DNA of 37,059 nucleotides, from assembly GCA_017629275.1 (NCBI GenBank), contig JAGBXM010000132.1, positions 1 through 37,059 on the forward strand. Direction: 5' to 3'. The notes beneath the pieces are model-generated. The model made no database searches and was not told the DNA's origin. It saw nothing but the letters and a program-made list of their open reading frames with translations. Shown here in pieces: positions 366 to 3,140 of the stretch (position 1 is the first letter of the stretch; each line of letters opens with the position of its first letter). Both the position numbers and the translations under genes were made by a program. This DNA comes from Clostridia bacterium (GTDB lineage: Bacteria; Bacillota; Clostridia; Oscillospirales; Acutalibacteraceae).

Positions 366-394
366 TTGAAATGACGTGTTTGGTTTGGTATAAT
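366..394 (+). promoter_or_regulatory. Sigma-A type promoter upstream of the hairpin array
   Basis: TTGAAA (366-371) and TATAAT (389-394) are separated by exactly 17 bp. A transcript starting near 401 would carry the whole hairpin array 399-609 as a 5' leader of about 250 nt before the oxidoreductase start at 652. Confidence 0.7.
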
Positions 395-398
395 ACAT

Positions 399-609
399 TT
401 ATAATGATTATAGAACGTGGAAACGCTTTGCGCTTCCACAAAAGCTGATTTATCAGCTTTTAAACAATCAAATTTTAAGAAATTTGATTGTTTTCTACAT
501 CATTGCAATGGTCGTTGTCAAATTTTCTTTGATAATTTGTTACCAAATCTTTGATTTGGTGTTGAAATTGCACTTTTAGTACAATTTCAACTTTCAATTA
601 CCATTATAA
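399..609 (+). repeat. Array of six abutting hairpins closed by imperfect terminal inverted repeats
   Basis: Successive stems occupy 417-439 (TTT loop, one mismatch), 440-461 (9 bp), 462-493 (14 bp perfect, TAAG loop), 519-539 (TTT loop), 542-560 (8 bp perfect, TTT loop) and 561-591 (10 bp plus 2). They adjoin with almost no unpaired bases except 494-518, which holds the palindrome CATTGCAATG. The outer 18-mers 399-416 and 592-609 are imperfect inverted repeats (14 of 18). The right end recurs exactly (17 bp) at 4659-4675. It could be a structured leader RNA or a MITE-like element. It does not code for protein. Confidence 0.7.
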
Positions 610-651: not shown

Positions 652-2208
652 ATGAAAAAAGTATTGATTATTGGCGCAGGGCCTTCGGGTCTTACGGCGG
701 CTTATGAGCTTCTTAACAAGTCTCGCGATTTTGAAGTTGTAGTTTTTGAAGAAGGGAACTGCTTCGGTGGTATTTCCAGGACGGTGAATTACAAGGGTAA
801 CCGTATGGATATGGGCGGTCACCGTTTCTTTTCTAAGGTCCCCGAAGTCAACGAATGGTGGGAGAAAATGCTTCCAACTCAAGGTTCGATGCCGTATGAT
901 GATATAGCTTTGGGCAGAACATCAACCGTTTTAAAAGGTGGCCCCGACCCCGAAAAGACAGATCGTGTTATGCTTCGCAGAAATCGTTTGTCGCGTATTT
1001 TCTTTGATTCGAAATTCTTTGATTATCCTATTTCACTCAAATTTGAAACCATTAAGAATATGGGATTCGGAACAACGGTCGTTGTCGGATTCAGTTATTT
1101 GAAGAGCTTGATTTTTAAGCGCAAAGAAAATTCGCTGGAAGATTTTTATATAAATAGATTTGGTAAAAAGCTTTATACTATGTTCTTTGAAAACTACACC
1201 GAGAATCTGTGGGGCAGACACCCTAGTGAAATTTCTCCCGAATGGGGCGCTCAAAGGGTCAAAGGCCTTTCTGTTAAGGCGGTTTTAAAGGATGTTTTCG
1301 GTAAGATATTCAATAAGAAGAACCGTAAGGTTGAAACCTCTTTAATTGAAGAGTTTGCTTATCCAAAATTTGGTCCAGGTCAGCTTTGGGATATTACGGC
1401 CTCAGAGTTTGAGTGTCTCGGCGGAAAAATCATTAAGAACGCCAAGGTTATTAAAGTCTTAAAATCTGGCGACAGCAATGTTAAAGGATTGGTTTATGTA
1501 AAAGATGGGGAAGAGACCTTTATTGAGGGAGATTATATTATTTCATCAATGCCTGTGAAAGACCTCGTCTTGGGAATGAACGACGTTCCCGAAGAAATTT
1601 TGGAAATTGCCGAAGGACTGCCGTACCGTGATTATATGACGGTCGGTGTGTTGGTAAAAAAACTTAAAATTCACAATAAAACCAAGACAAAAACTATTGG
1701 AAATATTGTTCCCGATAATTGGGTATACGTTCACGACCGTAACGTTAAAATGGGACGCTTTCAGATTTATAATAACTGGTCTCCGTATATGGTCAAGGAT
1801 ATCGAGCATAATGTTTGGCTGGGTCTTGAATATTTCTGTGATGAAGGCGACTCAATGTGGTCTAAAACTGATGAAGAGTTTGCACAGATGGCGGTTAAGG
1901 AAATGGTTACAATGGGACTGATAAGCCAAGAAGATGACGTTTTAGATTCGCACGTTGAACGTGTGAAAAAGGCTTATCCGGCATATTTCGACACCTATGA
2001 ACACATAGATGTTCTACGGAAGTATCTTGATACCATACCGAATCTTTTCTGTGTTGGACGTAACGGACAGCACCGTTATAATAATATCGACCACAGTATG
2101 TGCACAGCATTTGAAACGGTTAAAAATATACTGTCGGGTGATACACGTAAGGATAATATCTGGAATGTTAATACCGAAAAAGAGTATCACGAGGAAAAGC
2201 AGAACTAG
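652..2208 (+). CDS. NAD(P)/FAD-dependent oxidoreductase, amine-oxidase / UDP-galactopyranose-mutase-like
   Basis: This is a 518-residue flavoprotein. The N-terminus is a Rossmann dinucleotide-binding fold with GAGPSG at residues 8-13 and an acidic end of the second strand (VVFEEG), followed by GGISRTV and GGHRFFSK, segments common to the HemY/amine-oxidase superfamily. The C-terminal [13 protein letters not shown] resembles the second FAD contact region of this group. Relatives often sit in cell-surface glycan clusters, but no glycosyltransferase is adjacent, so the substrate is unknown. The ATG at 652 follows an in-frame TGA at 640. No clear Shine-Dalgarno lies within 15 bp of it; the nearest purine run is GAAAGG, about 30 bp upstream. 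A terminator at 2271-2304 ends the unit. Confidence 0.88.
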
Positions 2209-3046: not shown

Positions 3047-3074
3047 ATATTACATTTTTTCACTATTTTCACTC

Positions 3075-3103
3075 TTGCATTTTGTGGTAATAAATGGTAA
3101 AAT
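3075..3103 (+). promoter_or_regulatory. Promoter of spo0A
   Basis: TTGCAT (3075-3080) and TAAAAT (3098-3103) have 17-bp spacing. The expected start is near 3110, just before the AGGAGG ribosome site at 3127-3132. Confidence 0.65.
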
Positions 3104-3140
3104 ATGGCACAGAGTCCAACAAAAACAGGAGGAATGACAA

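Follow-up and report, generated by a model that had tools for sequence, protein, structure and literature searches.

RUP and Correia-type IS630 MITEs are short, A+T-rich elements with inverted ends, which occupy a 2-bp target, TA, and depend on an IS630 enzyme. The element described here, a copy of which lies at 401-607 of the window (the whole 37,059-nucleotide stretch of Clostridia DNA that was analysed), is likewise short and A+T-rich, with inverted ends and a 2-bp target, but this target is better read as AT, and an IS630 transposase was found in 0/28 genomes. In behaviour, REPINs are the nearest known system: like the element they are short, intergenic, hairpin-forming and non-autonomous, and compensatory changes are common in their hairpins according to the excerpted text of PMC3116915. 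However, REPINs consist of an inverted pair of one short REP near a RAYT gene, whereas the element is made of two different ~100-bp three-hairpin modules (M1 and M2) with AT borders and no RAYT link; M1 and M2 are not inverted copies of one REP, and the GTAG that marks a REP foot is here located in an outer stem.

BOX elements of Streptococcus pneumoniae are also modular and strongly folded, and for both BOX and RUP the extracted parts of PMC3049150 describe inverted ends and target duplication. By description BOX elements can be set apart, as they follow a boxA-(boxB)n-boxC plan with a variable number of boxB units, whereas the element has an M1-M2 plan with four-way junctions and occurs in another host group. 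The ends of IS200/IS605 elements carry subterminal DNA hairpins, as the element does, and theirs are recognised by the transposase (PMC6006769, in extract), but these elements insert beside a specific tetranucleotide, in contrast to the ~24-bp inverted ends and symmetric AT seen here. We found no description of the element among the open-access papers listed, and nothing like it appears in the excerpts of PMC10969869, a 2024 review on MITEs of prokaryotes, or of PMC2267715, a survey of stem-loop families, so that the family, small mobile elements that occur in the DNA of gut bacteria, is apparently undescribed.

The features of the locus are as follows.

366-394, plus strand: promoter-like site (TTGAAA, 17 bp, TATAAT) that belongs to the host locus and not to the element; taken as local context
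401-607: MITE-like element copy, 207 bp, with the layout AT-[AATG..M1..CATT]-GC-[AATG..M2..CATT]-AT
401-402: left border dinucleotide AT (target AT); A in 100% and T in 98% of 96 copies, and a single AT in two reconstructed pre-insertion sites
401-424, plus strand: left terminal inverted repeat, 0 mismatches to the family end ATAATGRYTRTRGWHNGTSGAAAC (by eye); 401-425 also has 0 mismatches to a near pattern
403-504: module M1, an outer stem and three hairpins (four-way junction), from folds and paired changes in helices 1-4
403-413: M1 outer stem, 5' arm, pairing with 495-504; helix 1, 91.3% of cells paired, both-sided change in 5/10 pairs
417-439: hairpin 1; helix 2, 92.0% paired, both-sided change in 8/10 pairs
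440-461: hairpin 2; helix 3, 95.9% paired, both-sided change in 5/8 pairs
462-493: hairpin 3; helix 4, 97.2% paired, both-sided change in 10/12 pairs
495-504: M1 outer stem, 3' arm, pairing with 403-413; helix 1
505-506: two-base GC linker between the modules (CATT-GC-AATG) in alignment A2; differs in other subfamilies, for example that of genome G204
507-605: module M2, an outer stem and three hairpins (four-way junction), from folds and paired changes in helices 5-8
507-517: M2 outer stem, 5' arm, pairing with 595-605; helix 5, 86.5% paired, both-sided change in 8/11 pairs
519-539: hairpin 4; helix 6, 97.2% paired, both-sided change in 4/9 pairs
542-560: hairpin 5; helix 7, 96.5% paired, both-sided change in 4/7 pairs
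561-591: hairpin 6; helix 8, 95.5% paired, both-sided change in 7/10 pairs
584-607, minus strand: right terminal inverted repeat, 4/24 mismatches to the family end (by eye)
595-605: M2 outer stem, 3' arm, pairing with 507-517; helix 5
606-607: right border dinucleotide AT; A in 100% and T in 100% of 96 copies, with one shared by neighbours in tandem copies
652-2208, plus strand: FAD/NAD(P) amine-oxidase-like gene, outside the element; open reading frame with a Pfam Amino_oxidase match (5.5e-15) on its first 330 aa

All six stems that the initial annotation had placed within 399-609 were found where it put them, in the sequence and in the folds, and the folding check that it had proposed gave energies far better than those of dinucleotide-shuffled sequence on both strands. 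Folded as RNA, 399-609 reached -68.3 kcal/mol on the plus strand (shuffles -32.3, sd 4.1; z -8.8) and -79.3 kcal/mol on the minus strand (shuffles -31.6, sd 3.8; z -12.6), with 0/200 shuffles as good in either case, and 401-607 folded with DNA parameters gave z -12.1 (60 shuffles). Three details of the annotated layout had to be revised. The flanking 18-mers are indeed imperfect inverted repeats (14/18 matches by eye), but the true borders are the AT at 401-402 and the AT at 606-607; in place of a single closed multi-branch junction, the minimum-energy fold shows two back-to-back four-way junctions, as do the paired changes among 74 copies; and the TTT triloop, read as a sign of repeated addition of a unit, is just one of many loop sequences found there in other copies.

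The element is repeated in its own genome and in others. BLAST of 395-615 against its own genome returned 23 match rows, which we merged by hand to 13 distinct places (two of them at contig ends and possibly halves of one copy), and the end pattern, allowing up to 3 mismatches, occurred there at 17 sites, compared to 1 for the reversed control. The same BLAST query matched in 6/40 genomes, its own included. In public species genomes the end pattern was present in at least 112 stretches, whose record titles name Clostridia, Oscillospiraceae or Ruminococcaceae in 109/112 cases and in many cases a ruminant gut source. Two pattern matches, in Muribaculaceae (L147) and in Actinomycetota (L160), look by eye like chance in coding DNA and were set aside. 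A covariance model made from 74 copies detected the element in at least 11/295 genomes of its order, probably Oscillospirales (9/149 genera, 8 families), while in a phylum sample of 398 genomes its own genome (G000) was the sole match (0/397 others), both counts being lower bounds with few candidates scored per genome. Searches of plasmids, phages and viral contigs, with one query sequence each, returned no match to the element.

Most copies are of one size, 195-214 bp in 80/97, with others at 53-182 bp and a 252-bp form in one subfamily (that of G204), and ~24-bp terminal inverted repeats occur at both borders of family copies. In the ORF lists that were checked, only one ORF of at least 70 aa contained a copy (103 aa, L109). 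Genome G204 has the element at 20 places, where 8 copies are full length at 93-100% identity and the other 12 are partial, several of these lying at contig ends; among the 10 genomes of its genus one congener carries one copy and 8/10 gave no match. A DNA search for empty sites with insertion flanks in congeners of the same genus gave no match, and the genus of G034 consists of a single genome. The MITE-like element that the initial annotation had offered as one of its two readings is supported by the number of copies, their inverted ends and insertion at AT, and by an uneven distribution with a burst in one genome.

Copies showed little preference for orientation: in 87 orientation-corrected copies the two orientations numbered 12/11 between plus-strand genes, 15/13 between minus-strand genes, 18/13 in divergent and 2/3 in convergent gaps. 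Element-bearing gaps were co-directional in 42 cases, divergent in 22 and convergent in 7, as against 93, 33 and 29 among other gaps 60 bp or longer. We do not claim a promoter-directed insertion preference, for which an uncontrolled count (convergent 5/87) had looked stronger than the controlled gaps. The promoter-like site at 366-394 is present as annotated (by eye); since a -35-like hexamer (5/6 matches) upstream of element ends was only weakly enriched over a control offset (14/191 compared to 5/191), we took this site as local context.

Further upstream, a tRNA-Leu(GAG) gene occupies 12-95, and its 3' end with the terminator (78-134) is repeated at 288-344 (96.5% over 57 bp); many rows of the repeat comparison that listed this match reflect one nested artefact (L019). 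The segment 164-356 also matches the first part of contig C33 from its own genome (94.8% over 193 bp). The 12-344 region is possibly the remnant of a tRNA-targeting insertion.

The borders of the element are strict. Across 96 copies ATAATG and CATTAT are nearly invariant, with no longer target duplication seen, and outside them the element is preceded by TT (67% and 75%) and followed by AA (83% and 78%). Two insertions allowed the pre-insertion site to be reconstructed. In L155 the element (1369-1577) interrupts a RAYT-type transposase gene, so that a hairpin element has landed in a gene belonging to a different hairpin-repeat system, and leaving one AT restored an ungapped match, with a conserved motif in frame, to 4/4 distinct loci (L222 and L230 being one locus), compared to 0/2 with no AT and 0/3 with two; one locus, L128, aligned to this site slightly better with two ATs, in a gapped match (56.3 vs 55.4 bits). 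In L154 the element lies within the loop of hairpin 3 of a second copy, and 69/102 distinct contexts were ungapped with one AT, as against 1/83 with no AT and 18/89 with two. Three other candidate empty sites were of less help: that of L107 fitted better with no AT, in a gapped match (81.5 vs 73.4 bits), that of L123 did not differ between AT counts, and that of L161 fitted AT and TA equally. Tandem copies in G012, G045 and G201 have one AT common to neighbours. Judged by sequence comparison, the two clean empty sites show that insertion turned AT into AT-element-AT, either by a 2-bp duplication or by an inserted unit that carries one AT, both of which fit. The empty sites alone would fit a shared TATA frame with AT or TA as the target, but AT fits better, since the TA reading needs the next outside A and T to be invariant as well.

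The modular plan is also visible in shorter and rearranged forms. The 12/97 copies of 53-64 bp keep, in those shown, the ends and one hairpin; a 160-bp copy in L019 is without hairpins 4 and 5; M1 occurs alone in L281 and M2 alone in L279 and L017, with AT borders on each; and in L025 an extra M1 stands behind a full copy. Such size derivatives would be explained by slippage among the AATG and CATT arms, which recur within the element. A 252-bp copy of the G204/G261 subfamily (L250, 1509-1760) has a longer arm of ~65 bases in place of hairpin 5, the remaining layout being intact. A ~65-bp hairpin with family ends and an unrelated interior (L191, ~3067-3135, G002:C2) matched the model weakly, at 17.1 bits.

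To follow the shape through the family we used an alignment (A2) of 74 copies, the 80 full copies minus 6 near-identical ones removed by eye. The eight-helix structure pairs 93.8% of its 5586 cells, compared to 86.0% in shuffled columns, with both-sided change in 51/77 pairs (26.9 in shuffles) and a covariation score of 0.237 (0.102 in shuffles), none of these three values being reached by any of 500 shuffles, which keep the shared ancestry of the copies, so that related sequences may exceed them without selection on structure. When partners were slid by 1-3 columns, pairing dropped to 35-46%. RNAalifold, left unguided, found 56 pairs with both-sided change in 37, and paired the outer six bases of the element with each other in place of the two outer stems. 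The search for other copies and the covariance test that the initial annotation had called for thus yielded many copies and compensating change in two thirds (51/77) of pairs; other copies, covariation and an energy unlike that of shuffles, whose absence it had named as evidence against its proposal, were all found.

The same shape recurs where the letters differ. Copies from G045, G150, G204, G261 and G299, as well as sister copies from G003, G034 and the element's own genome (L181, L183, L187, L185), differ in most of their letters and score 110-159 bits against the model. Folded individually, subfamily copies in L185, L243, L250, L204 and L209 gave six hairpins in a 3+3 layout; a G045 copy, folded together with a piece of the tandem copy beside it, gave six hairpins with a different outer pairing, and the G132 copy gave four hairpins. 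Copying of one arm onto the other in replication could yield the same paired changes. In a count directed at palindrome flipping, 399 loop pairs included 15 exact reverse complements, 12 complements and 4 reversals.

That 401-607 is a mobile element is, in our judgement, highly probable. The best explanation of the whole pattern, which we consider somewhat probable, is a non-autonomous MITE-like copy on which a trans-acting enzyme recognises folded DNA and acts at the terminal AT; that the enzyme reads the fold and not just the end sequence, as a separate claim, falls slightly short of an even call. Copies are too short to hold a transposase gene, and by this model the enzyme would be supplied in trans, would recognise the DNA as a folded single strand in replication or as an extruded cruciform, and would act at the terminal AT and join the element to another AT, preferably TT-AT-AA; the requirement for a fold would keep the shape while the letters drift. 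A further reading, possible but doubtful, holds that shape is itself the required feature, in that two four-way junctions are kept between bacterial families, as their sequence turns over, and are read in trans by a recombinase that joins at a palindromic AT and belongs to a class so far not linked to such elements.

An autonomous partner was sought among 42 end-like sites (40 stretches), part of a longer list, and, judged by eye, none was present; these sites were full or truncated copies, single hairpins, chance matches and one sister subfamily. Enzyme families were then compared between genomes, and the negative counts below come from MAGs with gaps. Among alternatives, an ordinary MITE survives best, though we regard it as unlikely: a DDE transposase would bind the ~24-bp ends as double-stranded DNA and duplicate a 2-bp AT, and the inner hairpins would be passengers kept neat by palindrome-correcting replication errors. 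IS630/Tc1-mariner (DDE_3) enzymes are the best known kind with a 2-bp target. The ~24-bp inverted ends, the AT-element-AT structure with one AT in the empty site, and the short copies that, where shown, hold little beyond the ends all agree with such a mechanism, but DDE_3, the sole DDE family searched, was found in 0/28 genomes, 14 of which carry the element, and this account does not explain why eight helices remain paired across subfamilies with different letters.

A second alternative, to which we give little weight, is that the element is REPIN-like and mobilised by a Y1 (HUH) transposase, RAYT or IS200/IS605 in type, which would read single-stranded hairpins and cleave after TTAT. The hairpin architecture, GTAG near one end, a target duplication of at most 2 bp and the compensatory changes known for REPIN hairpins (PMC3116915, in the extract cited above) would be expected of it, as would the RAYT-like genes of carriers G000, G002, G012 and G165, which score below the NCBI cut-off, as does one in G017, where no element was found. 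Against it, Y1_Tnp matched in 10/15 carriers (all but G001, G003, G150, G261 and G290, with fragments in G001 by the RAYT profile) and also in 6/15 genomes in which no element was found; within flanks of up to 1.5 kb, none of the Y1 or RAYT genes was bracketed by element ends, one of them (L232) having a copy ~1.4 kb away; and GTAG sits in the outer stem rather than at the unpaired foot of a hairpin. As far as profile matches indicate, Y1 and RAYT genes do not track the element.

Some of these genomes carry other systems of this kind. The complete genome G132 (L212, L226) has seven IS200-type tnpA copies, six with identical scores, and one element copy found by the model. In G012 a divergent RAYT gene (L225, 1279-1956) is followed downstream by another type of hairpin repeat, and G034 has a similar-looking hairpin array (L051, ~1400-1628); these repeats may be the RAYTs' own REP partners.

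Just as improbable to us is a serine recombinase, whose exchange at a palindromic 2-bp AT core would produce strict AT borders, a circle junction CATT-AT-AATG, an AT shared by tandem copies, and both orientations. The TTATAA-like target resembles the Tn3/gamma-delta resolvase crossover site, the border AT is conserved at 98-100% compared to 67-83% for the neighbouring TT and AA, and empty sites hold one AT. However, IS607, the only serine family searched, gave a transposase above cut-off in 0/30 genomes; sub-cut-off matches, many in long frames, occurred in 25/30, with none in carriers G034, G201 and G261, and the paired changes are left without explanation.

The remaining alternative places the constraint on RNA, either transcribed from the M1-to-M2 strand of the mobile element or serving as the leader of the downstream gene. 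The strand of a shape that served an RNA would put up with G-U pairs and shun A-C ones. Mismatched cells over all stems were G-T in 130 and A-C in 98 of 5586, few G-T cells for a structured RNA. Within the hairpins alone the counts were 88 and 72, and of the individual sequences 27 tended in one direction, 22 in the opposite one and 24 in neither; the low G-T share and even orientation make the pairing look DNA-level. By column pair, G-T exceeded A-C in 30, A-C exceeded G-T in 14 and the two were equal in 33 (sign test, p 0.023), a modest tilt in favour of a constraint that acts on the M1-to-M2 strand as RNA. Within A2, M2 (columns 119-223) has 78 G-T and 36 A-C cells and M1 52 and 62. Despite this lean in 30/44 unequal column pairs, the strong RNA fold and the promoter-like site just upstream of this copy, we hold an RNA role to be very improbable, given the scarcity of G-T cells and the stronger folding z on the minus strand of this copy. 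Its leader form, the structured leader for the oxidoreductase of the initial annotation, can be all but dismissed: 149 neighbouring ORFs matched 191 families, none in more than 6 ORFs (and no transposase among the 25 families listed of the 191), copy orientation is near-even, and Rfam gave no match at gathering score (best otherwise E 0.21).

Our preferred reading, a trans-acting enzyme that would recognise folded DNA, bears on how such repeats are understood. The small repeats of bacteria are generally classed as MITEs whose interiors are passive. In this family the interior keeps its shape better than its sequence, and so it can be tested whether mobilising enzymes read folded DNA. Clean empty sites, size derivatives and a recent burst in one genus are available, so that a comparison of genomes with and without the element can be used to look for its enzyme. 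In annotation, repeats of the element often lie at contig ends and could pass for regulatory RNAs.
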